Shown one piece after another: positions 32,132 to 59,300 of a stretch of 64,000 bases of DNA. Made by a program: the position numbers and the translations under genes. Location of the stretch: contig CAIIXF020000004.1 of the NCBI GenBank assembly GCA_903813345.2, forward strand, positions 14,763,196 through 14,827,195, read 5' to 3'. Within the stretch, counting starts at the first letter, position 1. Every line of letters begins with the position of its first letter. Origin of the DNA: Owenia fusiformis (Eukaryota > Annelida > Polychaeta > Sabellida > Oweniidae). A model generated the notes under the pieces. The model saw nothing but the letters and a program-made list of their open reading frames with translations, was not told the origin of the DNA and ran no database searches.

Positions 32132-32378
32132 ATGGACGGCGAAATATTTGGAGCTGCGATTTTGTTCGCATGTTTTTCCATAATACTCACAGCTGAGAAT
32201 GCAAATATTGATAAAATCACGAGCAAGGTGGAGGAGAGAGTCGAGGCAAACCATCGATTGGACTCTCAGAACATATTTATGTTCATGTCACTGCTTATTT
32301 TGGTTATATTAACAATATGGCTCTTCAAATACAAAAGATTCAGATTTGTTCATGAAACCGGTCTAGCTGTTATTTACG
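32132..32378 (+). CDS. NHE exon 1: leader and first core helix
   Basis: Residues 1-82. ATG at 32132 has a strong context (aacATGG) and is followed by a hydrophobic signal-like leader ending near TAEN. An in-frame ATG at 32096 is the alternative. It ends in the conserved [12 protein letters not shown] block, donor gtaagt, phase 1. Confidence 0.85.
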
Positions 32379-35300
32379 GTAAGTTTTCTCATCTAGGTGT
32401 TTACGAATATGTTGCAGACAATATTAGGCGTATGCAGAAATGAACAATCTTTCGTAAGGTATATGTTATATAGCTCAGCTTCAGATGTTTGTCAAGATAT
32501 CTGATGTCAAAGTTCATTGTTTTTATTTTACAATTTTGTAAAGTTGACACTGCAAAAGAATCTAGATTCAGAAGAGCCACTCTTGAATATTCTGGAAAGA
32601 TGAGAATTCATAGACTAACACCAATGCACTGTATGTACACTGGAGATACTGCCTCAACTGCCATACGATTCTTAACACACTGAAGGTCAATACGTCTGCA
32701 GAAACAGACAAAATACAGAAAGAAAGTTCTCATAGAATTTTTCATGGATAGTCTAGATGTCAGATTGACACAAATACAGTATATAAAACGTATATGCAAC
32801 TGATATATGTCCTTTTTCAAAAATTGCTTGATATATTTGTTATGAAATCGTAATGAAAAAATACTGTTATGAATTTTTTTTGTAAATTTGTGATTCATAA
32901 TCACATGGCTTATATTCAGATTAGTATTTATAGGTTATATTCAGATTAGTGTTTATAGGTTATATTATGATTAATTAATACACCTTTGACTATCTATCTA
33001 GATCAACTCTGCACCTAAACCAATTACTTTTGACCAATAAATTTTGACATCACTATGTATTAAAATAACAATCAATAGAGTACAGGAATCCATGTTGAAA
33101 AAAGGTTACTATCTAAAAAATTTACCATTTACAATACAAGTTATTAATTTATTATTAAACCTTTTTGGGGAGATTGAGTGTCACTAGTATCAAAAGTTTT
33201 GTATGACTGAATTGAAAATATTATTCAAAATAAAAAGGGAACAACAACGATATTAGATCAGTTATTTTTATTAGCTCACATGGTGAGCTTTTGCAATCAC
33301 TCACTTGTCCGTCTGTCTGTCCGTCTGTCTGTCCGTCTGTCTGTCTGTCCGTCAACAATAGTGGCACGTTTTAAAACCTCTGTCGATAGGATTCCTGTTT
33401 TAAGTTATTTCTGTTCAACATCAATACAGAAAACCCCCCTATGACTCCTGGTTCAAAAGCTCGCCTATTTTCAAAATGGCCGTCACTTTTGTCTCGGGAA
33501 ATTCACTTTTAGTCCATTTCCTAGCTAACCTCTGTCGATAGGATTCCTGTTTTAAGTTATTTCTGTTCAACATCAATACAGAAAACCCCCCTATGACTCC
33601 TGGTCCAAAAGCTCGCCTATTTTCAAAATGGCCGTCACTTTTGTCTCGCGAAATTCACTTTTGGCTCATTTCCTAGCTTTACAAATAATTTCAGGTGTCC
33701 TACATTGTAAAAATCCATGTCAATGTAAAAATTAGATATATGAAATAATTTTGTTACAAAAAATCAGCGAAAAATTGTATCCATTTTTTTATTTTCAGCC
33801 ATTTTAGTTAACATTGATTTGTCTATCTGACTCGCGAAATCCACTTTCTGTCAATAACAGTGGCACGTTTCAAAACCTCTGTCGATAGGATTCCTGTTTT
33901 AAGTTATTTCTGTTCAACATGAATTCAGAAAACTCTCCTATGACTCCTGGTTCAAAAGCTCGCCTATTTTCAAAATGGCCGCCATTTTTGTCTCGCGAAA
34001 TTCACTTTTGACCCATTTCCTAGCTTTACAAATAATTTCAGGTGTCCCACATTGTAAAAATCCATGTCAATGTAAAGATTAGATATATGAAATAATTTTG
34101 TTACAAAAAATCAGCGAAAAATTGTATCCATTTTTTTATTTTCAGCCATTTTAGTTAACATTGATTTGTCTATCTGACTCGCGAAATCCACTTTCTGTCA
34201 ATAACAGTGGCACGTTTTAAAACCTCTGTCGATAGGATTCCTGTTTTAAGTTATTTCTGTTCAACATCAATTCAGAAAACTCCCCTATGACTCCTGGTTC
34301 AAAAGCTCGCCTATTTCCAAAATGGCCGCCATTTTTGTCTCGCGAAATTCACTTTTGACCCATTTCCTAGCTTTACAAATAATTTCAAGTGTCCTACATT
34401 GTAGAAATCCATTGCAAAGTAAAGAGTAGATGTATGAAATAATTTTGTTACGAAAAATCAGCGAAAAATTATATCCATTTATTTATTTTCAGCCATTTTA
34501 GTTAACATTGATTTGTCCATCTGTCTCGCAAAATCCACTTTTGGACCATTTACCTTAAACCCTCTGTCGATAGGATTCCCATTTTAAGTTAATTTTGTTC
34601 AACATCAATACAAAAAACTCTCCTATGACTCTTGGTTCAAAAGCTCGCCTATTTTCAAAATGGTTGCCATTCTTGTTTCGCGAAATTCACTTTTTGCCCA
34701 TTTCCTAGATTTACAAATAATTTCAGCTGTCCTGCATTGTAAAAAGCCATGTCACTGTAAAAGGTAGTTGAATGAAATAATTTTGTTACAAAAAATCGGC
34801 AAAATATTATATCCGTTTTTTTTATTTTCAGCCATTTTAGTTAACATTGATTTGTCCATCTGTCTCGTGAAATCCTCTTTTGGACCATTTGCTTAAAACC
34901 TCTGTCGATAGGATTCCAGTTTCAAGTTATTTTTGTTCAACATCAATACAAAAAACTCCCCTATGACTCCTGGTTCAAAAGCTTGCCTGATTTCAAAATG
35001 GTCGCCATTTTTGTCTCGCGAAATTCAATTTTGGCCCATTTCCTAGCTTTACAAATAATTTCAGGTGTCTTGCATTGCAAAAAGCCATGTCACTGTAAAG
35101 AGTAGTTTTTTTTTCAGCCATTTTAATTGACTGAGAGACAGATGGCTTGAAATAATTTTGTAACAAAAAATCAGCAAAAAATGTGACCATGTGAGCCCAG
35201 TACCCACGGTACTAATTTTTAGATTTATTTCATTTTTATCTATGATAATTCAAGTGAACGATTTCATGAGGCGTTTCAATCTATCCTTTGAGCTAAAAAT

Positions 35301-38300
35301 CATATATTTTATAACCTGGGGTATCAAGGTAGGTCACCATATGCCAGTCTAAACTCTAAAGGTGGTCCTAAATTGAATGAGGAAGTCAATCTGAATAATA
35401 TATTTTTCCATTCCAGGTCTCATTATTGGAGCTATCATAAGGTATGCTAGTCCTAAAGTGGTCCTAAAACCGCCAGTCATAGATTTACCTCTAGCATCCA
35501 ACTATACTGCGGGTGACCCCCCTGAAGTTGTTAAAGTCTCTATACACGATGAAACAAATGTTAACTCAACAATTCAATTCCGTTACCAGTTCCGGGATAT
35601 TGTCCAAACAGAGGAGGCTGAGTACCAGGAGGAGGAGCTGGTACAAAAGGTAAGAAATCTGGGTAATGACATTGATATATTGACTCTGGATGAGATTGGA
35701 GTATTTATATGGTCCTAAAGAAGCAGAGGAACATGCCAATGGAGTTGTACATTAATCTAATTAAATATATTTGATGAATCAAAAAATCAAGTAATCTCGT
35801 TTCAAGCCCCTTTGACACCCCTGTGACGACCCCCCCCCCCCCCCTCTTCTTGACTATTCAGGTATGGAAACCTCACGCAGAAAGGTTTGTAGTAGGGGAC
35901 ACAAAGGCTTGTAGCTAGACTAGAAATTAAGTGACTTGTCAGTTTTCTCCATATTATAAATGGCCTGACCAAAACCATTAGTGCCATCAATTTTTCCCTT
36001 TATATTGCAAGCTTTCTATTACGTTTTTTCTATTAAACTTGTGGACTTTCAACTGGTAATTGCCATGTTTATATATGGCAATAGACTCACATTTCTGTGT
36101 TGTGGGAAATTACATTTGTAATAGAAACCACTGCAATTTAAACTGTCATTCGTGAAATTGATTTAAAAATGTTCTTTTGAAATTAACACAATTGATTAGA
36201 TATAGACATTGATTATAAGTCTGTTCAGAATATATGATCCATGTTTTTGTTTGAATTTTATAAGATAGACACTCAGATTTAATCAAGGAAATCATTGACA
36301 TTTATAGCAGTTTGATAATAATTAATTGTACATTTGATTTAATTTAAATGACTGTTGAAGAAATATATCTATGAAACAAATGAAAAATATACAGGGCGGA
36401 CCAAAAATATCTACATTTCTATATGGCGCAGTGCTTGCATTAGGCTCAAGAAAATTTGAGTCCCAATGAGGGAAAACAAAACCCCAATTATTCTTAATCC
36501 AATGTGAAAAGAAACAATGTCTAATACCCTACCATGCGTGCAGAGTCTAGTTATTAATTACCCTCTTCCTAGTATATTTATATTACAGTTTAGCAGCCCT
36601 GCACCAAAGATTGGTGCCTGTGACAGTGCAGGTAATTAATCATTTCAAATCTACCACGCTGACCCTTTCTCAACCAATCAGCAAAGTAGAAGGAATGTGT
36701 GCTAAATACATGCTCATTAACTATATGGTGATGTCATAGGAGATGACCATATGGAAAGTCGTCCATATTTCGACAACAAACTCTCATTTGCTTGGTGAGA
36801 TCAGAGATTTATTGTAAACTGAAAGAGTGAAGACGAAGCTCTCTTTTAAGAAGGGAAGTCGAACGATTGCAAAGGCTACTAATACCCCTTCCCCTCCATT
36901 CAAGTTCACTTATCATACTTAACTGAAGATAGATAGTATAGTACATACATGTATTTATAGGTACTTGACATTGACACTTATTAGATACATGAAGGTTATC
37001 TCAACTGGCCACAAACTATTCATTCATTACATAAACTTATCTCATTCTGTTATCTTTGAAGTACTCAAAGACCACAAAGTGTTTAGGTTTACTATTCCCA
37101 CAGAATTTGGTATTCACTTCTAGAGGCTGGTGTATTAGAGACTGGTATTCATAAGAAAGTAAATTTTCCAGTAAATCATCTTATTATCTATACTGTATTT
37201 ACCAGAGACTGGTATTAACTAGAGATTGGTATTTATTAATAGAAATTGGTATTTAATAGAGTGATATTCACTAGAGAGTGATATTCATAGGAAAGTATTC
37301 ACCTGAAAGTGATATTCTTGAGAGGAGATGTATTTACTAGAGAGTGGTATTTACTTGTAAATGATATTCTTTAGAATGTTTGTATTTTTAGAGACTGGTA
37401 TTCATTAGAAAGTAGAATTTTCCATGTGCATCATCTTATTATCTATACTGTATTTACCAGAGACTGGTACCAACTAGAGATAGGTATTCATTAATAGAAA
37501 TGATATTTATTGGAGTGATATTCATAAGAGAGTGGTATTTACCTGAAAATGATATTCTTAAGAATGTTGGTATTTACTAGAGAAGGGCATTCATGAGACT
37601 AATACTTGATTAATATTAATTAATACTTACTGATTGATATTCACTAGAGTGTGATATTTATAAGAGAGTGGTATTCACACAAAAGTGATATTCTCAAGAG
37701 AAGTATTTCAGAAAAGTGGTATTTACAAGAGATTTAGTCATATTCACTAGAGACTAGAGAGTGTCCAGGAGACTTGATATGATGTTATTCCTATGTGAAA
37801 TGTTATAGACATTGTCATTTGCCTCAGTATTATTACATGATGTCCTGTTGTATTGCTAGAATACAGATTAGAATATGTCACTTTGACTCTCTTGATATAA
37901 TCAAGCAGTCTTATATTGTGTTATCTAATTATATCCCTTGTCTTTCATTTCGGTTTTATGACACTATTGTTGTGTGAGATATTTATAATGTTCTGGACCA
38001 TATAATCTAAAGTTAGAAGTATGTATGGGTACAGGACAGTAGAGTAAAGGTATAGCATCTTAAAACCCTTCATCTTTTTCAATTTAAAATTAAAAAGTTA
38101 ATTTTCCCATTGAACAAAGTTTTTTCATGAAATGATTTTTAGCATAATCTAATAGCAGCATGTTGCTTTTATAGCAAATAAATTAGTCTGTGAATAGATT
38201 AATGTACTTATTACACAATTTTTGAAATGTCATAAGATGTTGAATTTTGTAAACCACATCATTCTCTCACCTTTCTGTACATGATAATACTCTATATAAC

Positions 38301-41300
38301 TAATTAATTAACTCTCAACTATATAAAAAACAGACCATAATATGTAAATCATGAATAAGACAAAACCTCCAAAATATGAAGTTTTTAGCTCTTGTCCTAC
38401 CAGTTTTCTGGGAGGTTTTTATGTTACAAGTGAAATAGACCTCATTATTTTCATATAATTGATTATTTGTTTCTTTTGTTTTCAGGCAACCTTTGACCCG
38501 GAAGTGTTCTTCAATGTATTATTGCCTCCTATTATATTCCACGCTGGATACAGTTTAAAAAGGGTAAGATGAACTTCCTGTTGGGGCTACCTGTTTGTAA
38601 ATCAGGGGTTTATATAACAAGACGTTATAATACAGCATGACAGATTAGTAGATGCATCTAATTGCTGTCCCCAATCCTCAGTTTTATGTGATTCTCAAGC
38701 CTGGTATAATTCTGCATAATCTTGATGCACAAAAACCATGTAGGAGCTCGAAAAATTCCAGAAAAGGCAAATGTTCCACCTAACTACAATTTAGATCATA
38801 CATGACCTACATCTTAGCTAGTTTATGTACTCATTACATCCTCGGACAATGTCGGCTAAAGGACTTTGCCCAATTCCAGTAACATGAATAATTTTTAAAA
38901 TCACATAACTTAATTTTAATTTTTAATATAATAATAACTTAATTTTTACTGCATGAAACTGAGGGGGAGTCATCATTATAACACACTATGCATTGTTCTA
39001 AATTGAATATTATTGAGTTGTGAGTAGTGTTGTGATTGTAATTTGACACCACTCTGGTAGATAGAAGCTGAACCACTGTTGTTATTGTACATTGACATTT
39101 AATACTTTTTGTGATTGATACCAGCATCGCTCACAAATTCTGGTAAACTATTTTCATCACAAATTCTGGTAAACTATTTTCATCACAAATTCTGGTAAAC
39201 TATTTTCATCACAAATTCTGGTGAACTATTTTCATCACTCATTTGCAAAATCTTCGGAGAAAGCTATAAATTGAATTAAAACTAAGTTCACACCGACGGC
39301 GCTTGGATACAATGGATAGCACTTTAAAGCGCCATCAAAGCGCCATTGGTGTGAACTTTGTTTAATCACGCTTAATCCTTGTTATGATAGTGAAAAAGTT
39401 TACAAAGAGATGTTTGAAATAATAAACACAATCACTGTTAATCACTTCAATTCTTTCATTTTTCAGCGTCATTTTTTCCGTAACTTCGGAGCAATTGTGG
39501 GGTATGCATTCCTGGGGACAACAATATCCACACTTGCAATTGGGTGAGTAGAGCCATTTTAGTGAGATAGATATTATAAAATGTCTAAAAGTGTCTTAGT
39601 ACCCTGCGTCTGTGATGTTCATATAAAGTGTATAGAAAGTGTATGGCGTATAGAAATTATTTAACTAGATGTGCACTATATGCACTTAAATAAGGATGAA
39701 AAAGACAAATGATTGACATGGCATAATAAGAAATACTATTTTTATTAATTTAAAAACTGCATTCCCAGGCCTTCGATCTCATTTGCTTGTTGAGTTATGG
39801 TATATAGGGGTATAACATTGACTTGAAACAATACTATTTCATCCTTGGCCCAAGAGTAATTCATTGCATTACATTACATTACATACATGATCTGCTATGA
39901 AAGCAGTGAAGGACCGATCTTGAAGGATGATACTATTTATAATGTTATCTATTCTATTGTTTGATGTAGAGCAGAGTATATCAGGTGAAGTGGTAAAATA
40001 TGTGTACACATGCTTCACTTGTATCTTTATAAAGCAAACAAATATATACAAATTATTGAAATATCTGCAAAACTGAATGTAAATAAAATAAGTCACAAAA
40101 GCAAACATAAGTAATGAGATGTTGTATTTACTCAGAATTATTTTTATAAACCAACCATTAATGTCATTTTGTAAACATAATTTGTCAAAATATTCATTAA
40201 TCTTTTTATGTAAAAATTATATTTTAGTAAATGTCACATTTTGAACACAATATGTCACTAAGTAATTCTAAATGCCATATACAGTAATACTAAAATAAAA
40301 TGCCACTATTTTTCCAAATGTGAAGATTAATCAACAGTCAATATGCAATTAGCAATAGCCTGAAATAGGCTTGAATGGTAAAATAATGTAACGGAATTAT
40401 CATTAAGTCACATTGACTGTCTGTATACACAAAGCACAACAGTTAAACCTCTGTATAATGAACAGTTTTGATATAGCCATTCTCCTAAAAAAAGCTAATG
40501 GAGTTAACACATATACTCATACATTGAGGATATTGAGTGTGTTGTGGGAAATATCTTATTTGTATTTACAAATGTAATGGAATTATCATTTAATTAATTG
40601 ACTGTCTGTATACACTAAACACAACAGTTAAACCTCTGTATTATGAATAGTTTTGAGATCCATTCCCCTCCCCACAAAAATAATGGAGTTTATAACACAT
40701 ATACTCATACATTTAGGATAAAGAGTATGTTGTGGGAAAATATTTTATTTCTATCTACAAATAGGCGAGGGCTAAATGGCAGTCTACTTGTCATAAATTA
40801 ATTTTCATGTGGACAACTAGGAGCTATTTTTACGAGGAAGATAATACAAGAACTGGTCCATAGGTTCTAGCTAATCAATGCAAGTCACAAAATTGTATTG
40901 CTATATGTTCCAAAGCATCTATTGCATCAGGAAGAGAGCAGAAGCTTTAAATAAAGAGTTACCCATATAGAGAGTGATACTATCAGAATTCTGAATTTGG
41001 TTAAAAAATCTGTATCAAAAGTAATCTAGCAATAGCCAGTGCAACTGCCTCTAGTGTAAGACCTGTTTATGTTTATACTGTCATTCTGACCAGAGCTGGT
41101 CTCAGATACTCAGCTTGACAAAAGCTTGAGGCCTGATACACAGCAGGCCCATAGCCAGGATTTGCCAAGGGTGTTCACTTTTTGAAAAATTCCAGGGGGT
41201 TCAGTTTTGACAATTTTTGTTCGAAAATTGCCAAAATCACTTAAAAAGTGCTCAGAATCATGAAAAACTGCATGATTTTGTAAGAATGTTTGGCTAGGCG

Positions 41301-44300
41301 GGGGGGGGGGGGTCGCTTGAACCCATAGAACCCCCCTGGCTACAGGCTTGGGTACAGGTTTCGCTTTCGCTGGTATTTGGTTAGTTGTTCGATTTACAAG
41401 TATAGAACAGCATGACCTGGAAAAACACTAGAATATGCATAGCATATCCAACATGTTGTTTGACTATTTATTTATCATTTTGGGTTCATCAATTTAACCT
41501 GGACATACTTTAGTTGTATGTTATCTATGGTGTGTATATACAGTACTGTACTTAACAGTGTACATGTTTATGTCAGTCAGTGCATATAAATGATGTATGG
41601 TTTTTGTGAGGTCAATGTTTATATTTAATTGGACATCATTTCATTCTTCAGTTATTTTAATAGAAGTAAGATCATTATTAGAAATGGCAATCTCAGTTGT
41701 TTGTCAATAACTGAAAGTTCATGTACTAAGAGATACCACAGTGGACACCCCCCCCCCCCTCTTCACCCCCCCCCCCCCCTCACACACCCCCCCCCTCACA
41801 CACCCCACACATTTTCCCATCAAGATAATCTTGAACAATAACATATAACATATGGAAAGCAGTATTTTCTTGATGATAGCCATTTATATATGGACTTATG
41901 AATATATTATCTATTTTTGGCATCCAGTCAAAAGTACTAACATGTACATATGCAATATAACATGTGTGAGTACCTTTTGTATGAGGGATAAGTGTTCATT
42001 TCATTCAAGACCTCAATACTATATGCAAAAAATGGATTTTTGGGGAAAATTGCATTCTGACATCTTAACTATGCTGATGATTTCACTTCCAAAGAGGGAA
42101 ACCTGTATGAAGAGGAAACTGCAATTGACTGGGTAAAAGTGTTCAAATTAAAGAGCTAGTGTTCAAATGCAAAGGTGTTGTTTGCTGTACATCAACAACT
42201 TATAGAGGTGTTCAGAAATACAGGTTATGCTGTACATGTATTGTAAGAAAAAGTCTACATTCAGTGAATATTGTGTGCTGGGACCAACTTAAGTTCCAGC
42301 CATTACTTACAGGCTTTACTGTGTTTTATGTATGTATATCAGCAACACATGTTAAAATATTTTAACTTACCCTGGCAAGAATGCATTGTTACCGGAATTC
42401 CATAGTTTAGGGTCAGTAAACAACTCTCTGCTTTCTGGTCTCTCTAATCCATCTCTCCCTGGCGACACCACATCCCGGCTATTGTTTACCATAGCAACGA
42501 GCTCAGAATGGGGATCAGTCCTATGTGGTCGACCAGCTGAAATATCCATATCATCTGAAGCCATGTTATGATATAATCCAAGTTTCTTGGGTAAACTTTG
42601 AGGAAAAGTTGGTTTAGATTCTGTTTAGTTGAAAGTTTGTAACTTGAGCTTGCCTTCCAGTTGCCTACTGTATTCCCTACTACATCTTTAGTGGGTGAAT
42701 AGGGATGCAGGAGCAGGGTTAGATTGAATGATTCATTCTAGTGAAATGTCTTGATCTATAAGGGCCTTATTGTGTGGTTCTTATAGGAAGTACTTTTTTG
42801 AGTAGATCCTTTTCATTATTGGTCTCTTTTGATAGTGTTATAAAGAAATAGTATTTGTTTTTCTTGAGTTTGTATAAAAAGTTTTATCAATTTTTGCAGC
42901 CTTGTAAGAAAGTTTTCCCCATTTGGGTTGACTCAGAGTCTGCAAGGCAAATCATTGCCATTATTCTCCCAGAAGTGCCAAAAAAGATTGTAAATAGGGA
43001 ATTATATGTAAATGGTTGCTTATGAGTGGAAATTGGGAAAGTATTTCCTGTACAAATTTATCCATAATTTCTCTCATTTTGAACTTCTCTAAATTCCCAT
43101 CAAATATGTTCTAAATATGCATTAATTTTATTGCTTTTTCGTCCTTCGATCATAATGTTATATAAATCATATCCCTTTCATAATATTTCACAAGATCTAA
43201 ATCAGCAATTTGAATTATTTGTAAGGGATGTTCTAAAAATGAAGCTAAGTGATGAGTCTATGAGTAGATCACTGCATCCACTGGTTAGGAGCTTAGTGAA
43301 GCTGCAAATCAACAAACACCTCTAGTGTTGAGCTAGGATGAATAAATAAAATAAAAACACCTTTGCTAAATTAACTTCTTTATTTTTGAGACAATAGCTG
43401 ATTTTCTCATAATGTTTCTCTTGTTTTATATCTAGTGATTTGCTAACCTGAATAGGGTTGTACAAAATAAAATATATCTCAAATAATGTGATGGTAAAAT
43501 GTATTATATGCATAAAATGCATTGACATAGGAGAAAACTTGTATGTACAGTAAAACCTGTCTAATTCGAACACCTTTTGGGACTGGCCAAAAGTGTTCAG
43601 ATACAGCAGGTGTTCACATTTCAAGGACAGAGAAAAAGTGTTCACATCGAGAGATGCTCGGATAAGAGATGTGCTTGGATATACACTAAACAGGTATCAC
43701 TGAACAAATTATGTCCAGTGAAAAGTTAAAAAGCATCTGACCCCCCCCCCCCCTCCTTCAACTTCCTTACCTCCTTGTCCGAGATGTTTAAAGGAAGGTC
43801 ATCACCTGCAATTTGTTACAGAGGAGATGTTTAAAGGAAGGTCTCAAGGGCTTGAAACAAGACTAGAAAATATGTTATCAAACTTAAAACAGAGGCTTGA
43901 GTCATCAGATAGAAACCTATAAAATGGGATACTTAACCATGAACAATTACAACTGCTGTCTTTTTTCATTAGATCAGGTTTTAGATTACAATACAGTCTC
44001 TTGCACAGTCTGCAAAGATTTCATTGATTTATATTGGCCTATTGTTTAATTTGTAATACTTTCATGTGGCTGTGGATGAGACTGAAATGAAATGTCAAAT
44101 GACTTCCGAGTTGTATTTACATTCTCTTCAATAAAACTTACGAGGCAATTATTAAGCCTTTTTCTCAAATATCCGCAAATGAAGAAAACTAATAATAAAT
44201 ACATATTTCAAATGAAAAAATAACATGTTAGTCCATGCTAACAAAAATGCTCTAATATACCAATAGAAAATTGAATCATTTGATTTTTTATTTAGTCTTT

Positions 44301-47300
44301 ATGTCACTGCCACAAGTGGTGACATGTTGTTATAGACTTATAGTCTCCACCTTTTTTGGCTGGTGTTTGGCATCTGCAACAGCATTACGCATCTGTAACA
44401 GTGTTTGGCATCTGTAACAGTGTTTGGCATCTGTAACAGTGTTTGGCATCTGTAACAGTATTTGGCATCTGTAACAGTATTTGGCATCTGTAACAGTGTT
44501 TGGCATCTGTAACATCATTTGGTAGTCAGCATCTGTAACAAATGGCAGGTGATAACATTTTGCATGTTAATGCCTTGTTTAAGTTAAAGAATGATACAAA
44601 TTCGTATAATAGTTTCTCTATAGAATATTTCTGTAAGAGCTCACTTTTGTATGGCTCTGTGATATCAATTGGAACGTGACAAGAATTGACGAGTCTTACA
44701 GGTGTCGGCTTATAGGATATTAAACTTGATATATGTCTTAATAAGTTAGGTTGTTAAGACTTCCCTGTTTGTATTGAGAAATGAGAAAAAATGAGAATTT
44801 TCTTTTCTGTATGTTAAAGCTTGGCTTTACAAGTACATGTAATAAGGTAAAATATCAAAGTGAATCGTATTAGAAATCAATTTATGTTTGAATTATGTTT
44901 TATATTATTTCTTTTCTGTCAGAACTTAGTGTTAACTATATCAGTTAACTTATCAGTTCACACTAAGAAATTAATTTTCTTCTTCTTCAGGTGCCCTAGT
45001 GAAGAATGATTAATTGTTCTACTTTGACTACCTTAATATAAAGAAGAAATACATAATGGGGAAGGGGATTAGAATACATAGGGAAATATATAATGGGAAG
45101 GAAAAATACATAATGGGAGAAAATGAATATTGGGAAGGGGAATACATGATGGGGAGGAAAAATTATGGAGAGGGAAATATATAATGGAGTGGGAAAATTT
45201 AAGATGGGCAGGCAAAATATATAATGGGGGACAGAAAATTCATATTAATAGATGGGGATACATAATTGGTAGGAGAAATAATGGTTAGCATGATATATAA
45301 TGGAGAATGGAGGTGAAATGTATAGACTAATTTGAGTGAAAACATGTGAAGGGGACCGGGAATACATAATGGAAAGGGGAAGTACATGTCATGGGGAGGA
45401 GACATACAAAGTGGGAAGGGGAAATTCATAATGGGCACAGATACTTGATGCAGGAGCTTGAGCAATAAGGTTTGATAGAAGACTAGAAAGCGTAAATGGA
45501 ATTAGAAAACAGATCAGGTCACCTCTGCATTATTGTAGACATGCTGATACTCGTCTTAAAATAGATTATAGAGGAAGAGATCAGAGTGCCACTTGTGCAA
45601 TATTGTAATAAAAACAGCAATTTTGTTCGCAAGTTGAATGCATATCTAATTTCTTTGACAGGTGACAAAAATAGCATTTATAACATACCTATGATGATGT
45701 ATAGTGCAAAGTGTACACAAGACAGCGGGCCAATATAAGTTTTGAAAAGCCCGCACCCGCTAACTTTCTGATTGGTCAAGGTGCTGACGTCATAACCAAT
45801 CAATCGAAGATAAAACTGCGCGAGCAATTTTTCTTAACTCATTTCAATCATTTTCAAACCATTTGTTTGTCAATTCTATAGGAAAACGATACTCTCTGAC
45901 CAGTCTACATCATCATAGGTATGTTATAAATCGTTTATGTCACTATCGTGGCACATATGCCCTCGGTTCTCAGAGATCAATGTCCCTCCCAAGGTCGGGC
46001 CATATATCACTGAGACCTCGGGCATATATGCCACGATAGTGACATAACCTCTAAATATTGTATAATAGCATATATTGTTATAGATAGGTTCAGAAATGTG
46101 GCGAACTTAAAGTAATCAATTAAAGCTGCACTGTGTCAGAATCCGACCTAATGAGACAGTACTGCTTGTCAAATTCTTAACCCTCCCTACATCGGGGGGG
46201 GGGGTCTAACCTTTGAATAGTGCATTGCTGTTATGAATGTGCTTTAGAATATTAGAATGGCTTGGCAATTTGATGGTATTCAGTTTATCATGTAAACCAA
46301 ATTCTTTAATTGACAATATTGTTGTGTTATCTACAGACTGTACTTGACCTCCTTATGAGGGTCGATCAATAAGAATTGCTTCTTTGACTATCCATTTACT
46401 ATAGATTTTTTTATCAGTAAGAAAATAACATATTTATCAACCCGCATATTTTTAAGAACTTAAAGAACATCTTCGTATCTTGTTAATGTGAATGTGATTG
46501 TGTAGCAATTGTAGATAGTTGAGTACTTTCCTGTAAGGAGAATTTCATTATGGTGACATTTTAAAATGCAAATTAAAGTGAAAAAGAGTGCAATAATCAA
46601 GGAAAAAACTAAATGTACTTTTAATGAACACTCTAAATTGTATAGAAATCTGAGATAATTAAGCAGTTCATTCAAATTTTAGAGAGTAAAGTGGGAAAAG
46701 GCATGACCGCAATTATGGTTTTCTCACATGGTTATCAAGTGTGCATATCTTGAATATGTATATTATACTCAAATATGAGCTAAGTCCATGGGAACCAGGA
46801 AGCAATGATATGAAGAAAAAATGAATACAGTGCTTTAATGTTGCGGAAAATATAGAAAATTGCATTTCTATTCGTTAGTCTAATTCATCAGTTTAACTCA
46901 AATTATTGAAACCAGGAAGATATAATTTTAGCAATATTATCTATGTGTAAACTTAAATGCAGCCGAGTGTACAGCCTCCAAAAATTTAGCTATAAGTTGT
47001 TATATAGAGATTCCGGATTTCCGGTTTAATATGCATATATCTTTAAGAATGTGGATACTATAAGTTATTGAATGATTTGAAGTGCAATACGGGATATATT
47101 CTGCTTGAGAAATTTTGTATTGGAACAAGACGAAGTCAAGTGCCAATACAGAATATCGAGACAGAGTATATCCTGTAATGCACTTCAAATCATTCAATAA
47201 AATTTTTATTGTGTGATCCTCTGTATTGCTACTGAGATTGTCCCCTCCGTACCAATATTTTCTGTATTGCAACGGAGATGATCAACGGGGACAATCTCAG

Positions 47301-50300
47301 TAGCAATACAGATTGGTACAGCACAAGAACTGACCAATCAGAGGGCTTCATTTTACAGATCATACGATAAAAGTGTTTGATGCATAACAAGTGCTTTCTG
47401 TATAATTTTATCATGGCTTGACGGGGTTCATATTTTGAGGTTTTAACATGAAAGAGAAAAGTGTTCCACATTTGGAAATTTTTTAGAGAACTATTTGAAT
47501 AAGAGAGGAAATGTCCAAATATACAGATTTTGTTTAAAGAATAAATACCGAGATTTTATGATTCATGGTGTTATATATTGAAAATATTATTATGTTCATT
47601 GTTAAAAGACCGAAATCGCGTAGCGATTGAGGTCTTTGGCAATGGCCAGAATAAAATTTGAGGTCATATATTTGACATAAATCATAAAATCGAGGTCTTT
47701 GTTATGATTTGAATATGATAAAACATGGACGTATATCAACGAAACACAACTATTTGCATTTATGAATTTTAGCGGTCATACATACTTCAATATAGACCAG
47801 TAAATCAATTGTTCTAGCTATTGTGAAATCACTTATCATATTAGATTATAATTTATTTGGTCTCAAGAGTCACATGATATAAGACTTCATATTAATATAT
47901 TATTTCTATGTTTCAGATGTGTGCTGTATGGAATAACAAGAGTGATGCCATATCTCAATCTGACCTTCACAGACACATTGTTCTTTGGAGCCCTCATCTC
48001 AGCCACAGATCCAGGTAAACCCCCAATCCCCCACCCCAATCCTCTAATCTTTAGGGATTTGCATCATCCTCCGTAGATATTTACATCATTGAATATTAAA
48101 GCAGTGGGTGCAGCATCCATTTGATATTTTGAAAAAATGAAAAAATATCCAATTAAGATTTTAATTAAGTGTTAGTGCCCACTCATTTGCAACCACCTGA
48201 AAATAAAAATACATAAATTCACCATATTTTGATGAATCATAGTCAGGATTGTGTAAATTAGAATATTGCACCAACTTTAAGAATGATTAAATACAGGAAG
48301 AATACGGGACTCAAGGGTGTATATTTCTGTATAACTTTTACTGTAGAATATATACAAAACTAGTTATACCAGTATTTTGTTATTATGCAGGTTTTAAAAT
48401 GAGAAAACAAATTTTTATGCAAAAAACTTATTTATGAGAAAATGACATAATTAGCAAGAGTAACATGTGTTTCTACCTGCATGAGATAGAAAGTGTGCTG
48501 AAACTGATGTAGCTTAAAGCCGACAACATGTTGCTATTCTCAATAGGCAATTTATAAGTATCATATATATATATATATATTATACTATAACTATAAATAT
48601 TGTATTTGTATTGTATTTTATTCCAGTGACTGTACTTGCCATATTCCACGACCTCCACGTAGATGTTGACCTTTATGCACTGGTGTTTGGAGAGAGTGTC
48701 CTGAATGATGCTGTGGCCATTGTACTATCTGGGTAAGTTTTCAGATAGTTCCCAATTTGACCAACCTGTGAAGAGAAAATCAAGGGAAACCTAGGGCAAC
48801 ACTGTGACACTTCAAAAACTGTCATAATATGGATGCAATCCCTCCTGAAAATTGAAGCAGAAACTTTGTCTTAAGAAACAGGGCTCATTTTTGGTAGAAA
48901 TGTAATTTTAGAATCTTAGAAAACATTTTTGATGGACAATCAGTTGCGTTAGATTTTGACAGTTCTATGCCTAAACAACCCTCCAAACATAATTTCATGA
49001 ATTGTATTATTTCCAATTTGATAATGTTTGGATACATTCCCTCTAGAAATAATTTTTGCAATTAACTAAGTCTAATGAAATAGCTCTATTGCAGCTTAAT
49101 TGATTATATGGCAGAATATCTATGAGATGAAAACATAAGTCCAGGCCTATCAGTGATCTCTAAGTATTAGAGCAACCGGGTGCTGATCCCTCTTGAAACT
49201 TTGAAAATGCCATACCTCATATTAGAGATCTGTTTGTACCATATTTAAAAATAGTTACACATTGAGGTTGAGCTATTTTATTATGTTATTAGGACAGGGC
49301 CACCCTGTTACCAAATACACATGGGGAGATCACTGCACACGATAATGAAAAAACTTAAACATAATATGAAAAGCTGATAAAAATTAATACAGTGAACTAT
49401 TACTAATGAAACGACTCTATTTTAGTGTAATAGAACAATACGGAGACTTACAAAGGTCAGAAATGGAACATGGTTTGATTATTAGGGTGTCTTAACCATA
49501 TAGAAATTATTATGATGGTCATGGTTAAATTTGTAAACTACAGAGGAATAAAGAAATTGGACATGTAGTGAACACTCAAAATTGTAGAGAAATACAAGAA
49601 AATGGAAAAGTCTAAAGAAATAGCCAGAAATATGAACAACTACCTCAGTCAGTTTTTCACTGGAACAAAAGTATTCTTTAAGAAACTTCCTCATTGAATT
49701 ATTAGCCTTAATGGTACATCAAAAATGTGTGAATAGTGATCACATTTTAGGTGTTCACTAAGAGTTTCAACTGAACATGGCCATCATGAAGTTTTTAACT
49801 GTTGGTGTAATTGTTTTCCAAATAAGAAAGTAAAAAGTAATGATGTCAATTTAAAAACAATATTTGGAAGGCCACTCCTGAAAATATGTGTTGTTATAGG
49901 TGGTGTTCCATTTACGAGAGTTCATTTTTTAACATTAAGTCAGTTGATATTGGGACTCTGAAAAGTGTTCCACTTACAGGGGTGTTCCATCCACCTCTAG
50001 AGGTGATCCACTTTACAGGTTTCACTATTATTTTTGAATCATCATTCACTATATTTTGTGGAAATGGCCCCTGTTAAAAATTTCTGAAAATATATCATGC
50101 ATCATCTTGAGCAATAATCAATTGTTGCATTATTTTTTGTTCAGTCATATATGCATGCATAAATTTGTTCAACTATGCAAAGTTATCACCCCATGCATAT
50201 TAACATTTAATGGCCATGCATGGACAAACTAACGATGTTATTTGCCATTTTAAATATACTAAACATCATGCTTTTTACTTTCTGAAATAGGGTACCTTCA

Positions 50301-53300
50301 TATTATTTAAACGTAGGGAGTGGACATTTTCAACTGTAAAATACCTAGTTTTATTTCCTAAAAGTTTTATGTAGGTTTTGGATTTGACTTTGGTAGTGCA
50401 GTTTTCTGACTAAATATTGTGTGTGTAACACATTCCGCCTTTAAGGTGTTTAAGGTTTGGGTGAAATCTTCCCTAGATCCTTTTTGTTTTTATTATTCAT
50501 TTTATCCTTTTGTTTTTTCACTTTTTCATTTATGTCTTAAATAATAACAATTGTAAAGAACTGGAATATAAACATCCATGTTTAAAAAAAAATTTAATAT
50601 GAAGATATTCACAAATGCCAAAGTTTTATCTTGAGAGTATAACTTTTGTCTGTACCATATTCTGTTTTCACTTGACAATGTTAAGGTTTGTCATTGATAA
50701 AGTACAAAAAAAATTATTTTATCCATTTTTCAACATTTTCCCCATTTATCATATTAACCATATTTCAACCCATACTTCGATAAGAATTTCCAAATTTTGA
50801 TTTATGCCTGGGTTGGGGTAAAAAATACATATTTGCCATTAAATATGCTTTTCAATATTCATAATGTTATCTCATGTTTTTCAGGTCCGTAGAAAAGTAT
50901 GGCAAGTCCACTACCGGGGCTACATTTGACGCAAAGGCCTTCTTCGAGTCCTTGGGGAACTTCCTGGGTATATTCAGCGGGGCATTTGCCCTGGGCACAC
51001 TCGGTGGCATGATTAATGCATTAATATCCTTTGTCACAAATTCAATGAATAATTATTAAAGTTGTTTCCTCTTGTATGTGGTCATTAGCATCCTCATCCA
51101 CTCATTCTATTGCAGTCAATGAGTTAATGGCCGATAGCTGTGCACAAGGATCTGATACAAGACAACTGCAAAATACTCCTAAACTTTACTTCATACAAAA
51201 TGAATTCCTTTATAGATTATAGGGAACATATTGAATATGGAATATATTATCAAGACAAAATAAGTGTAGATAGCGGTATTTGCCACATTGAGTGATTTTG
51301 ATTTTTAGAAATGCTCACAATACCATGGACAGTATTACTTTTCCAAAATGAAGACTAAATGTGATATTTATATTCCTTAAACCCCTTTGTACCTTACTAA
51401 ATACACAAAGATCTCTGACCATCCCCTGTTAGAGACGACCTTGTTCTTCCTGGTCAGTTATTCCACATACTTGGCAGCAGACGCAGCTGGGCTCACAGGT
51501 AGGGAAATGTCATGGTAGTCATGGTTTTAAATGCAGAATGTGGAGAAATAGAGAGAAATAATGAGAAATAAAGTATACAAGTGTAAATGTTAAGGTGACC
51601 ATGTTTTAAAATGCAAAATAAGGAGAAATTGGGAGAAATTATGAGAAATAAAGTATACAAGTGTTAAGTTGATACTCTGAATTGTATGGAAATGTTAAGG
51701 TGGCCATGTTTTAAAATGCAAAATAAGGAGAAATTGGGAGAAATTATGAGAAATAAAGTATACAAGTGTTAAGTTGATACTCTGAATTGTATGGAAATGT
51801 TAAGGTGGCCATGTTTTAAAATGCAAAATAAGGAGAAATTGGGAGAAATTATGAGAAATAAAGTATACAAGTGTAAAGTTGATACTCTGAATTGTATGGA
51901 AATGTTAAGGTGGTCCTGTTTTAAAATGCAAAATAAGGAGAAATTGGGAGAAATTATGAGAAATAAAGTATACAAGTGTTAAGTTGATACTCTGAATTGT
52001 ATGGAAATGTTAAGGTGGCCATGTTTTAAAATGCAAAATAAGGAGAAATTGGGAGAAATTATGAGAAATAAAGTATACAAGTGTTAAGTTGATACTCTGA
52101 ATTATATGGAAATGTTAAGGTGGCCATGTTTTAAAATGCAAAATAAGGAGAAATTGGGAGAAATTATGAGAAATAAAGTATACAAGTGTTAAGTTGATAC
52201 TCTGAATTGTATGGAAATGTTAAGGTGGCCATGTTTTAAAATGCAAAATAAGGAGAAATTGGGAGAAATTATGAGATATAAAGTATACAAGTGTTAAGTT
52301 GATACTCTGAATTGTATGGAAATGTTAAGGTGGCCATGTTTTAAAATGCAAAATAAGGAGAAATTGGGAGAAATTATGAGAAATAAAGTATACAAGTGTA
52401 AAGTTGATACTCTGAATTGTATGGAAATGTTAAGGTGGCCATGTTTTAAAATGCAGAATGCGGAGAAATAGAGAGAAATAATGAGAAATAAAGTATACAA
52501 GTGTAAAGTTGATACTCTGAATTATATGGAAATGTTAAGTTGGTCAACTGCAAAATAAGGAGAAATTGGGAGAAATTATGAGAAATTGAGTATACAAGTG
52601 TAAAGTTGTTTTAATGTTTTAAAATGAAAAATTAGGAGAAATGGGAGAAATCATGAGAAATAAAGTACTGTATATAGACATAAAGGTAATACTCTAAATT
52701 GTATCGAAATGCAAGAAAATCAGGATTTCATTTCAAATTATAAGGAAATACAAAATTGGTTGAAGTATGTCAAGGCATGAAGTTAAGATTGTATTGAGTT
52801 TTAAATAAAACCAGATATTTAACATTTTATGGAGAAATAGAATTAATTATGAGGTGAAGGTATTATCTAGAAAATGTTTTCATTTATATCAATTCAATTT
52901 TTGTAATAAACAATATGTATTTATTTTTTATTGTAGGTATTGTGGCCATATTGTTTTGCGGTATTAGCCAAGCTCATTACACTTACAACAATCTATCTTC
53001 AGAATCTAAGCTACGCACAAAACAGGTATGTCGATGTCAGTGTTATTAAGGAGGCTTGTGACATTTAACACATTGCTTCATTCAGTCATTTTCACATAAG
53101 GCATAGAAATATGTGACTATATTCCAAAAAGCAAAGCTCATTTTATTTATTTTCTACACTAACATAAAAGTATATTTATCTGTTTTATATGTGACTTACC
53201 TTAGTGTAACAAGTACTCCTTAACGTCAGCTGACCAGCCATATACCTTAAAGCAAGTGACCTTTGTGTTCCTGGGTTCAGAACTACTGACCAGCTATATA

Positions 53301-56300
53301 CCTTAAAGCAAGTGACCTTTGTGTTCATGAGTTCGGAACTACTGACCAGCTATATACCTTAAAGTATGTGCTATTTCTATTTTCAGCTGTTTGAACTCCT
53401 GAATATGTTGGCAGAGAACTTTGTGTTCTTGTATATAGGAGTCTCCACTTTTACATTCACAAAACACAACTGGAGGGTTGAGTTCATATTCTCAGCTTTC
53501 GTATCCTTTAAACAAATCAAAATTTTGATTTAGTAATCATTTTTTAGCCTATAATATTTGTATTATGTACCATTAAAATATTCTTGGTAAAACTTATACA
53601 CAATACTCATACAAAATTGTTAAAATGTTGATCTTTATTATTTGCAAGTTTCATTTAATTTCATTAGAAAAAAGCAAAGTTAGAGTGTGACATCCAAAAC
53701 TTTTGGATCACCCCTCGTACATAACAAACCGCTAGTCACCCGAACATAGAATTATTTATTGTAGAATTAAGCTTTATTATTAAGGATAGATGTTATATAT
53801 TTATTTACAATATATAATAATTAAGGTAATGCTCCGTTTTGTGCTTATAGTTGTATTGATACCAACTTTGTTTTGTGATCCACTGTTTCAAATGTTTTAT
53901 TACTAAAATGTTTTTTGCCTGCCATTGAATTGAAATGTGATTTTGTTTTGTTTAATAATCAATTTTGTGCTATTGCTCTCTCAGAGTATCTCAGAGTATT
54001 TTGCAACCAAAGCATGATATTGTTTGTATCTAATGATATGATAAATATTGTCAGAAAAATTCAAATAATTAAGCTCAATTTGTGGTTTATTTTGCATGCA
54101 TGTTTTTTACACCCATGAAGCCATTCCATGATGAAAAATGAGACGGAGGAATTTAAAGTTAACGTGAGTGAGCCCATTTTTAGGCGTTGCAAATATAGTC
54201 CCTGAGCATATGGTCTCTGATATGACCATAATGGAATCCAACTTACTGTTATCTGCCAATTTGAAAGTCATGTGAAAGATCCATATAAGGCTTGTGGGAC
54301 CATATATGGAAAACTAAGGGAAGCCCCTGATACCAAGTGATGCCAATGAATTATGGGAGCTACTCACCTTTTATGGGTCTCATAACTGGAATGGCTTCAC
54401 ATGTGTGTTTTCAGCTGCTTTGTTGTCCGCCTTAACTAAGTTTTCAGCTAGCCATTATAGTTGGTAGAGCTCTCAACATCTACCCAATATCATTTTTGCT
54501 CAATTTAGGAAGAAAAAATAAAATAAACTACAATTTTCAGCATTTAATGATGTTTTCTGGTAAGTGTATTTGCTTTATTTATAGTTTAGTCAGTGCACCA
54601 ATGGTCATGTACCTTTACTTGTTGTTTAATAATGTCAATTAAAGGAGAAATGTGCCCAAATATTTGGATATACTACTCCTTTAAATGTCTTCCCTTGAAA
54701 TTGAAATATGTAAAATTACATGGCCATTATTTGATTTTATGTCACCACCAGAAGTGCTGACATTTTGTTATAGTCTCCAACTTTTTTTTGTGTATGGTGT
54801 TCAGTAGTCGGCATTCAGTGTCTGTTATAAATGGCATGTAGTGACATTTTGCATGTTAATGCCTTGTGTTATAAATGAAATTAATATAGTTAGATATTGC
54901 CCCATTTTCATTTTGCCAAATTTCTATTTTTCCTTAGCCTTTATTTTACATTGCTAACATAAGATACCCCTCTTTAGAAACCATAGATAGCATGATATAA
55001 GGAAACACAGGAATCATCAAAATAGAAATAGTACAGACGTACATGTTCACTGTCAACATTCTGAATTGTATATAAAATCATGAAAATCAAAAAGTTCTTT
55101 CATATTCGGCCTATTGACCGAAACCCCTAGAAAACGGATGTTTTGCTCGAGACAAATCCAATCAGCAATATCGATTAAACGTGAAATTCTTTTTGATACA
55201 TAGATGGCAGCATTTCCTTATCTCTGTCAGATTTCCATAGTGATCGCCCGTGCCCTCAATATTTATCCGATCTCGTATCTTCTCAATTTTGGGAGGCAGA
55301 AAAAAATCACTCCGGCTTTCCAGCACCTCATGATGTGGTCAGGTAGTTAGCAGGCTATGATGATAAGAAATTAATTACCCTTCTTTATCTATTCTCTACT
55401 GTCCTATTGTCTCCATCTTATTAAAGTGATACAAAGTTCCAAATTTTTGACGAGCTGCTGCAGTGGTGGATCTTCAATTTCAAAGGGTGGAAGGCAAAAA
55501 AAACAAATTTTTGTTTGAAAATATTTATCCAGCTTTGAAAATAAAGCCAAGAATGAAAAAAATTCAGGTCCCCAAAAACCAGCCCTGGGAAGATCCTTGA
55601 GTGTATTGGACATTTAGTAGATTGGAAAGCAAGGTCAAAGGACAGAATGAATTGCTCAGTATATAAGTGAATGTTAAATATTCTAAGGGGACAGTTCATT
55701 TGGAGGTGGTAATAAACAATATGTAACAGCCTTTAAAGCAAAAACCTTTAAAATGCTTGCTATTTCCCTTGGAGAGTGAGATGAACTTATTTCTGTATTT
55801 ATTTTTAGGTCTACGTGGTGCCATAGCATTCGCGCTTGCCATCAGAAATACATCAAGTTCTGTTAGACAGCTTCTGTTGTCAACAACACTAGTCATTGTC
55901 ATAGCAACTGTGATAGGATGTGGAGGTTTCACCACCCAAATGTTACAATGGCTTAAAATACGGTAAGAATGGAATAATATAGCTGACAAAATGTTTAATA
56001 ATGTAGTGAATATTGCATTGTCTTTTAAAAATTGTACAAACTTGTAAAAATATCGTGAAAAGAGAAAGTTTGCGACTTTATCTGTACTATTGTTTTACAG
56101 TCTCTCAAACTTCCATCTTAAAATCATCTTTAAAACTGTTGAACTCTTAAAATTCTCAAGAAACTTTTTGTTTGTAGTTTAGAAATTCCTAGATTTAAAA
56201 ATCAGTCACTGAGTCAAAAAATACTGTGTATGCTTCTCAATATCTCCAAAAATAGATATTTATATTTCTTTAAAAAAAAAATTTTCCAGAGTTGGTGTAA

Positions 56301-59300
56301 CTGATGATACCGATACACACAACGAAACCACTGCAGTAAGAAATGTAAGTTTACTTAAAAATCATCCCAATATTTTACATCTAGTTTTCCTATATGTATT
56401 TCACAAAACAAATGATATTGTTGTAACGGGCTGTGTTCTTTCTTGCTAGCATTACCACTCTACTATACCTTGCATTTGGTGTTCATGAGCAACCCATTTG
56501 GCTTAATAGTATTGATTATGTTATTTTTTTTTATTTGTCTGTTCTTTATTAATGGTTTATCGGATGACTGTAAGATGTTAATAAGGTACTTTCAAAAATA
56601 TAGTAAACAATACAATTCGACCAACAGTGTATCTTATGCATTTTTAGGGGTTAGGTATAGTAGAATAGTAGAGTGATTATTGGGATTACTGGGTACTCCA
56701 CCTTCTTGAGAATTTAAGGATATCCAAGTTGAAGATAAATTGCACACAGTTTAGAATCATTGAAAAGTCATTAAAATGACATATACAAGCAGCATTACAA
56801 AATTTGTGCAATCTTTATAATCTGTTAATCTGGTAGTTATACAAATAACTTGTTTACAAAAATAACTTGTTTACAAATAACTTGTTTACAAGTCTGGAAT
56901 TTAATTTTGACTTCTCGGTGATCCTGCCTTCAAAACTAAAGTTTTGCACCCAGTTTGGAAAACCCCTAGGGAGAAAACTATAGTGACATGCTGGATGTTT
57001 AAATCACACAGCCGTGTGCAAAGCTACAGGAATTGAGCTGATTGTTCATATATTTACACTTTGCATATACCTAATGGAGATTTCAAGAATATGTAACCTC
57101 TAGATATACTGCCATTTGATTGACATATTGCCTTTTGATCCATGACTTATATTCGCAGGCAGCTACATTTCTCCAGCCAAACTTCAGCCAAATTTTGTTG
57201 TTGTTATTTTTTGTTGATTTTGCCACTCACATACCTTTTTATGCTTTGGAATATGTTGTAGTTTAAGCAATATTCACTGTGTTCATGCGCAAGATTGTAG
57301 TTTCACCTTTATGATCTTTATATTGTTGTTTGTGATAGCTTGATTTCCAGCTGATATATAATAATGCTTGTAGATTAAAATAATGATTCCCAATTTGACC
57401 TTATAAGCTTTATCAAATAGAACCCTGGGTAAGACCCTCTCCGTTTTGAATGTTTTAGCTTCTGCTTCATGACTAGACATTGTCAAGAAAGAATGAGATA
57501 AGAGTTTGGAATATTTTATTCACTCCAATGAAATATCATTATCAATCATCAATATTTTGTTTCATTTTCTCCAATTAAAATCTTAATCTTGATATAAAGA
57601 GTGTAATAATTGACCCATTTAGACTATGCATAAGAGCCCATGTTGATTTTTCAAATGTGGTTGTATACGTAAACTATGTTAACATAGAATTGGCTGAATG
57701 TTCGTACAAGATTCATCATTCATGACTTTTATGTTTGTTTGTCTTTAGTTGTCAAACGAGAGATTGAATGAGGTAAGACTTATAACCGAACCTCACATTT
57801 CTATTAAAATCTTTCTGTTTCTAAAATTAGTAAATGCATAGATGTTAGAAATCATCTAAAATAAAACAAATATATTTTGCTGAACTTCATAAATTGCAAA
57901 TTACTTTCAGAAATTAGCTTTCAATTTTGTTGGGCTGTGGGGCTTTTAAAATATCCATGCCTTTTTGCGCTTTAATGTTCCTAATCCCTTGTTTTTTAAT
58001 TTCGCCCCTAGGATTTGGAACGCCAACGAAATTATAGAGCTATACAGGAGGGTCGCACTGGAGGAGATAGGTCAAATATGGTTGGTTGCATTGTTGCATG
58101 TAGCGTTTTGTAGAGGGTGAAAGCTTCTTGTTCTGCCTGTCTGTCATTTAAATCACCCTGGTTTTGTGGGTGTTTTTTTTCCTAAATACCTCCAAACCTC
58201 TAAAAAATCTAAAGATTGGACAAATAAATGCAATTAATCATAGAAAATGAAATCTGAGATTTTCCTTGTTAGTGCATGTGTTATGATGCCACTGCCAGGG
58301 CTATACTTCCACATCTTCTAATGTAAATTACGTGATGGTTCGTACATTTGCTCATACCTCGTTCAATTCTGAAACCTTGTACAATAGCCATCCAAGAACC
58401 AGGGTGAATTACAATTTCTCAGGCTGCAGATTTTGTTGGTCTTGTTAATTTATCTCATTCTAATCCTGCTTGAGGTTGAGTTGAAACTTTACACCCTTTT
58501 GGTTGTAAAATAATTTAGACAATGTCACTGTTAATCTTAAATAACATAATGTTATACTTACTTAAAAATAGTCATGTGTAATATTCTCAATACTTTCAGT
58601 CTTTCATCTAAGTGGCTCACTGTTTTACGCTCATAGCACTGTGTTTTGAATATAATGTCATTTTAATATTCCAATATGAAGTGTAATCATTCCTTATTTC
58701 TTTTCACCTAATAAGCACTTTTCATTCTACTACAATACATTTTTCTTATCAACGTTATTTTATTTTACTGATCGCCATGGTTATGGTCAAGGTAATTAGC
58801 TGTATATAAGAACGTGTGTTGAGTTAGTGCAGAATTTGTTGAGTGTTATCGTTATATTCCTTAAGGTGGCCCAAGTCAGATACCTGTGGGACCGTTTAGT
58901 ATGCTGGTCTTTGTAAATGGTCCTAGACTTGGCCCACCTTAAAGTTTATGCCAGCAAATGTTAGCCTGATGTCATGCTCTGAGTAACTAAATTTAATGTA
59001 ATCTCTACAGCACAAATGATAAACTCTTGAACAGTTTGTTCATCTATTAACACAGTTTGATGACCTTTGACCTTACAAATTTCAGCTGACCTAAATTTGA
59101 AAAATCAACGATTAACACTTTTCAGACAAATGAAAATGGCACAACATATCTGTCTGTGCTAATGATTTTCTCCAATGGTCTATCTTTTTTCTCGTTTTGG
59201 AATAGTCAGAATTTTCTTGGGAAATTTCCTTGTGCCATTTTCTGTAGATATAGCATTACTCGTATATCTAAAATAAACACAAACATCTCTTTTTGGCTAT

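Follow-up and report, generated by a model that had tools for sequence, protein, structure and literature searches.

The window analysed here, a stretch of 64,000 nucleotides (64 kb) from the annelid Owenia fusiformis, contains an exchanger gene of the NHE6/7/9 type that spans approximately 32.1-62.2 kb on the plus strand. Its probable first coding exon (32132..32378, MDGEIFG..., with a start codon that is one choice among the possible ATGs) joins in frame to exon A at 35417. Exons A to F (35417..51023), which encode the TDP and GESVLND ion-site motifs, lie at 35417-35649 (A), 38486-38563 (B), 39467-39543 (C), 47917-48014 (D), 48627-48732 (E) and 50885-51023 (F), followed by exons G (51393-51498), H (52937-53025) and I (53387..53500), all on the plus strand. 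Exon I is the common exon upstream of two alternative exons, 11a (54448..54559) and 11b (55231..55342), each of 112 nt and 37 residues, and exon 12 (55809..55962; GLRGAIAF..., TM12), preceded by a U2 acceptor, is the common exon downstream of the pair; exon 13 occupies 56290..56344. Joined together, the 12 exons from A to 13 (35417-56344) encode 453 aa without a stop, whichever of 11a and 11b is included. Translation indicates more 3' exons at 61.0-62.2 kb, which appear to resemble the NHE6 tail.

Several repeats are interspersed with these exons: a 347-bp tandem array (33527-35105, 4.6 copies, 91% match) in the gene's first intron, a 105-bp tandem array (51585-52608, 9.8 copies, 95% match) in the intron that separates exon G from exon H, and a 56-bp repeat (53230-53364, 2.4 copies) that ends just ahead of the exon I acceptor. 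Elsewhere in the window, the plus-strand open frames 2303-3394, 4969-6324, 12617-13771 and 23267-24468 are alike by eye, contain cysteines and have an apparent transmembrane segment; they have the look of a gene family arranged locally in tandem, and none has a Pfam match over cut-off. The frame at 17702-18883 (plus strand) is transposase-like (Pfam DDE_Tnp_1_7, E 2.4e-64).

Both isoforms of the exchanger match Pfam PF00999 nearly equally (238.3 and 237.3 bits) and exceed the cut-off of NCBIfam TIGR00840 (326.8 and 329 bits), a broad model named sodium/hydrogen exchanger 3. Among solved chains, the closest to the exon I-13 region are NHE9 (E 3.3e-49) and NHE6 (9.1e-46), the same region being far weaker against NHE3 (E 2.6e-13) and NHE1 (2.7e-10). 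The ion-site residues listed for NHE9 in PMC7737618 and PMC11953442, T214-D215, E239, N243-D244, R408 and R441 (NHE9 numbering), are all present in the spliced frame, including GLRGA. Judged by these similarities, the product is an endosomal-type Na+/H+ exchanger of the NHE6/7/9 class, as an earlier reading made from the letters alone (hereafter the sequence-only reading) had proposed, and its nearest solved chains are indeed NHE9 and NHE6, ahead of NHE3 and NHE1. An endosomal location would be expected from its family.

Exons 11a and 11b have equal length, the same entry phase 0 and the same exit phase 1, and encode identical residues at 24/37 positions, so that the two homologous 112-nt exons of the sequence-only reading are borne out, and all its coordinates hold on re-check. 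Neighbouring exons alike in length, sequence and phase are what characterises a mutually exclusive exon cluster. At the nucleotide level the two differ at 43/112 sites (38%), distributed over codon positions 1, 2 and 3 as 10, 6 and 27; pS between them is 0.99 and pN 0.23, meaning that synonymous sites are saturated. The alignment stops at the exon edges, and the flanking introns are unrelated. When 43 random changes were simulated under neutrality, 0/20,000 replicates retained 24 identical residues and 78% gained a stop codon; with AT-rich substitution (n=5,000) the pass rate was 0 at 43 changes, 0.1% at 30, 15% at 20 and 56% at 10. Since frame and protein remain intact after saturation, and given these pass rates, the pair is on sequence evidence an old duplication that selection has kept for most of its joint history. 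Genome searches place 11a and 11b once each, within the limits of the search tool, and tblastn with both exons yielded no convincing third copy in the 64-kb window (next best E 0.14).

A paralogue at G000:C3:5689.2-5690.2 kb (L001), which we provisionally label NHE8-like, agrees with the exchanger gene in the position and phase of both introns flanking the exon, and its exon gives a gap-free alignment of 37 residues, but its donor is of U2 type (GTAAGTA); genome searches revealed no duplicate of the exon at this locus. An intron stretch within the exchanger gene (54700-54870) resembles, by eye, the NHE8-like locus and sequence elsewhere in the window, and is perhaps a dispersed repeat. The RBFOX-like motif TGCATG is present 3 times between 53501 and 55808, where 0.83 would be expected; two of the occurrences overlap, one of the three (54850) falls in sequence similar to that of other loci, and no conclusion is drawn from them. 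Relatives of the 11a form were also sought in one scan of viral contigs (68 pattern matches, none confirmed) and one of prokaryote contigs (190 pattern matches, none confirmed); both outcomes are as expected for an animal gene.

The 5' splice site common to both alternatives (GTATCCTTT, 53501..53509, plus strand) is of U12 type. The donor at 53501 reads GTATCCTTTA, a perfect match, placed exactly at the end of exon I, to the U12 donor consensus RTATCCTTT. The pattern RTATCCTTTR occurs 4 times on both strands of the window against 1.07 expected, and 2/4 of these sites fall exactly on exon ends of the exchanger gene (53501 and 51024). On their other side, both alternative exons have U2-type donors: GTAAGT in 11a (GTAAGTG with the following base) and a weak GTAGTT in 11b (GTAGTTA), the latter with 2 mismatches to GTRAGT, as many as in the exon D and G donors of the same gene. 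A U12 donor facing two exons that end in U2 donors had been proposed by the sequence-only reading, and both elements are present. A shared U12 site upstream, together with U2 sites downstream of each exon, matches in this respect the layout of U2/U12-incompatible pairs of the JNK/TMEM87 class. The U12-class partner site is clear in 11a, though inside the U2 score range, and imperfect and pyrimidine-rich in 11b.

In the acceptor region of 11a (54427..54447, plus strand) the branch motif is CCTTAAC and the end TTTTCAG, and in that of 11b (55214..55230, plus strand) a branch-like motif, TTCCTTATC, without the second branch-site A, lies within a pyrimidine-rich stretch. With a U12 consensus and motif weights set in advance, not fitted, 0.12% of 1,646 background YAG sites score as high as the branch motif of 11a and 0.49% as high as that of 11b, compared with 5.7% to 95.5% of background for the remaining ten AG acceptors in the model of the gene. 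The earlier attribution of a U12 acceptor signal to each exon agrees with the motif of 11a, and for 11b needs the qualification that the motif is imperfect, yet ranks in the top 0.49%. This weighted score took over from a scan with the simple gapped pattern TCCTTRAY, which was found at 3 places against 3.81 expected and misses all three U12-like acceptors of the gene, because 11a reads GCCTTAAC, 11b is short of an A, and the AT-AC intron described below reads TCCTTAAA with an AC end. On a U2 acceptor profile built from 14 sites of this genome, and hence small and rough, 11b scores -3.7. Every one of the 14 U2 acceptors scores higher (4.8 to 14.0, leave-one-out), and 43% of background YAG sites do at least as well as 11b. 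The value for 11a, 5.9, falls within the U2 range, so its acceptor class is not clean by this profile. The 11b acceptor has 13/16 pyrimidines, and among nine U2 acceptors of the gene counted alike one is higher (14) and one equal.

A further U12-type intron of the same gene, absent from the sequence-only reading, separates exons F and G (51024..51392, plus strand). It is of the AT-AC class with textbook signals, namely the donor ATATCCTTT, the branch motif TTCCTTAAAC and an AC end (...TTCCTTAAACCCCTTTGTAC at 51392), and its branch score is reached by 0.67% of the 1,646 background YAG sites. U12 introns are known in the SLC9 family, because an AT-AC U12 intron is common to fly Nhe3 and human SLC9A7 (PMC2831892, Table 2); SLC9A6 is treated as a minor-intron gene in PMC6865273, and SLC9A8 is named among U12-intron genes in PMC8329584. 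The assembly itself contains genes for all four minor snRNAs over Rfam cut-offs, U12 (2), U6atac (2), U11 (2) and U4atac (1), as a minor spliceosome requires.

The protein segment exchanged by the pair was placed by the solved NHE6 and NHE9 chains and corresponds to NHE9 residues 402-438 (numbering via the 8pxb chain), comprising TM11, the following loop and the start of TM12. Arg408 (TM11), Ala409, Arg423, Ser438 and Arg441 of NHE9, as given in PMC7737618, fall on matching 8pxb letters. R408, N411, P414, R423 and an FQH motif are kept in both versions, and the 13 residue differences are located at 402-407, 417-430 and 437. The change before R408, G or A at 407, which the sequence-only reading had emphasised as a GRA versus ARA swap in a core segment, is present, although alone it is not exotic, being the same difference as between the PDB chains of NHE6 (GRA) and NHE9 (ARA). 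At four positions (A403S, L421F, N430A, F437W) 11b differs from a residue that 11a, NHE6 and NHE9 have in common; identity to NHE9 is 29/37 for 11a and 22/37 for 11b. Exon 11b thus appears from these comparisons to be the more derived of the two, and its use may be rare. Because 11a is closer to NHE9 (29/37) than to 11b (24/37), either 11b changed faster or the duplication predates the split of the vertebrate genes; residues 410, 415 and 434, common to 11a and 11b and found in neither NHE6 nor NHE9, do not decide the age of the duplication. Replacing 11a by 11b lowers the score of the region against NHE9 (169 to 156 bits) and NHE6 (158 to 148) and raises it against NHE3 (53 to 59) and NHE1 (43.6 to 50.5). 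The role of the Glu239-Arg408 salt bridge, called unclear in 2020 (PMC7737618), has been taken further in PMC11953442, where the bridge is confirmed and proposed to stabilise the ion site. Among the NHE9 autism/epilepsy patient variants in PMC7737618, 3/5 (A409P, R423X, S438P) fall in the region encoded by exon 11.

Taken together, the anatomy of the locus makes it very likely that 11a and 11b are alternative exons and suggests that they are probably mutually exclusive. The full reading, in which one exchanger would carry two alternative, mutually exclusive versions of TM11 and the TM11-TM12 loop, kept apart by split U12 and U2 sites, is in our judgement likely, and we hold it with reasonable though not complete confidence. 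On this reading both exons would be used and would exclude one another, in the order of splicing that follows; regulation of the choice, and any difference in transport, would come in addition. The minor spliceosome would splice the exon I donor at 53501, a U12 site, to one of two U12 acceptors, that of 11a or that of 11b, and the major spliceosome would join the U2 donor of the chosen exon to exon 12. If 11a were chosen, no U12 donor would be left for the 11b acceptor; if 11b were chosen, 11a would be lost within the long U12 intron. Inclusion of both exons, or of neither, would lead to a premature stop and no full protein, and the message would probably be degraded.

The reading-frame consequences can be read directly from the spliced frames. 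Joining 11a to 11b produces a stop in exon 12, 96 nt ahead of the next junction, in agreement with the frame break that the sequence-only reading had predicted, and skipping both exons produces a stop 15 nt into exon 12, 136 nt ahead of the next junction. Frame breakage is therefore firm as a second barrier. Splice-class incompatibility probably contributes, perhaps without being sufficient or airtight; on this point the U2 profile on the one hand and the pyrimidine content and weak 11b motif on the other disagree. By sequence, a join of 11a to 11b by the major spliceosome is possible. The earlier claim of a splice-class block is thus retained as far as the U12 donor and the U2 donors are concerned, and loses its strictness at the imperfect 11b acceptor with its 13/16 pyrimidines.

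It is against this background that other explanations of the pair have to be weighed. Exclusivity could arise mainly through frame breakage, nonsense-mediated decay and trans-acting regulators, with an 11b acceptor open to both spliceosomes, a reading that we regard as somewhat improbable but worth serious attention. The pyrimidine richness of the 11b acceptor fits it, as does the description in PMC8329584 of 3' splice sites shared by U2 and U12, where a pyrimidine-rich U12 branch site may make the same 3' splice site usable by either spliceosome; so do the stop in exon 12 after joined inclusion of 11a and 11b, and the figures for human clusters (n=629), of which 60% break the frame by their length and 0.79% show U2/U12 incompatibility (PMC5740500). 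The U2 profile speaks the other way, with 11b under all 14 U2 acceptors, and the sole donor seen on exon I is of U12 type, so that any productive use of 11b requires its acceptor to work as a U12 site.

The same features of 11b, its weak donor and imperfect branch motif, together with its four changes where 11a, NHE6 and NHE9 agree, would also suit a relic or rarely used exon in a gene that works through 11a alone. Against such an outcome, which seems to us quite unlikely, 11b has retained its frame, length and protein sequence although its synonymous sites are saturated; in the simulations some 10 neutral changes would often escape notice (56%), whereas 30 preserve such a copy in 0.1%, and these pass rates leave for 11b only a recent loss of function, which is possible. 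Far less probable still, to the point of being nearly negligible, is an assembly artefact in which two haplotypes or two loci were collapsed: the assembly consists of 525 contigs and no support for an artefact was found, and exons that differ at 38% of their sites between unrelated introns, each placed once by genome searches within the limits of the tool, argue against it. Mutually exclusive exons with split U12 and U2 sites thus remain the preferred reading.

It is tempting to speculate that the minor spliceosome picks between two versions of TM11 and that its activity sets endosomal transport or pH response in each cell from a single gene, in rather the way that mammals use two genes, NHE6 and NHE9; we consider this extension tentative and, on balance, unlikely. 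If transcripts confirm the pair, a single invertebrate gene would switch the catalytic-core helix bearing the Glu239-Arg408 salt bridge, and two naturally selected versions of the salt-bridge helix would be on offer.

Interlocked U2/U12 exon choice is established for MAPK8/9 and TMEM87A/B (PMC8329584, PMC6717393), and U2/U12 incompatibility was found in 5/629 human clusters (0.79%; PMC5740500). SLC9 is absent from the main text of that survey, and among the matches listed in the open-licence literature, judged by title and abstract, none reports such an exon pair in SLC9A6/7/9 or Nhe3. Within the exchanger family, SLC9A7 and fly Nhe3 are the nearest parallel, with an AT-AC U12 intron as in the gene described here; they differ in that PMC2831892 gives one AT-AC intron (number 5 of 12) and, in its section 8, mentions no duplicated exon. 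PMC6025963 counts fly Nhe3 among the genes that DN1 clock neurons splice alternatively, in a passage that does not give the kind of event.

The closest mechanistic counterpart is provided by the JNK genes MAPK8 and MAPK9, in which two alternative exons, 6a/6b (7a/7b), have interlocked U2 and U12 sites and one is included, the choice being tissue specific (PMC8329584, PMC6717393). In JNK, an unrelated protein, two U2 acceptors and two U12 donors are combined with a downstream U12 acceptor, whereas in the exchanger gene a single U12 donor, lying upstream, faces two U12-like acceptors, and two U2 donors follow. The sequence-only reading had spoken of the same logic as in JNK-type kinases; the principle is documented in PMC8329584, but the polarity is reversed and JNK is the mirror image. 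The JNK locus of this genome (L003, G000:C9:37259700-37264699, minus strand) has a downstream U12-like intron (GTATCCCTTT ... TTCCTTAAC ... AG). The exon upstream of this intron is the one that is alternative in mammals; only one copy of it was seen at that locus, and JNK was dropped as a positive-control exon pair for this genome. TMEM87A and TMEM87B likewise have mutually exclusive exons, 11/11a, around a U12 intron (PMC8329584, PMC6717393), but in an unrelated gene and with the U12 intron downstream.

The U12 intron is thus upstream in the exchanger and downstream in the named cases (MAPK8/9, TMEM87A/B), a mirror image. The class of mechanism is already known and reversed polarity is the twist here; the mirror form may itself not be new, because the survey in PMC5740500 examined donors on both sides. 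If transcripts confirm it, this mirror-image case would join the few known exon pairs controlled by U2/U12 sites, and it would help to tell whether exclusion is enforced by splice-class incompatibility or by frame breakage.
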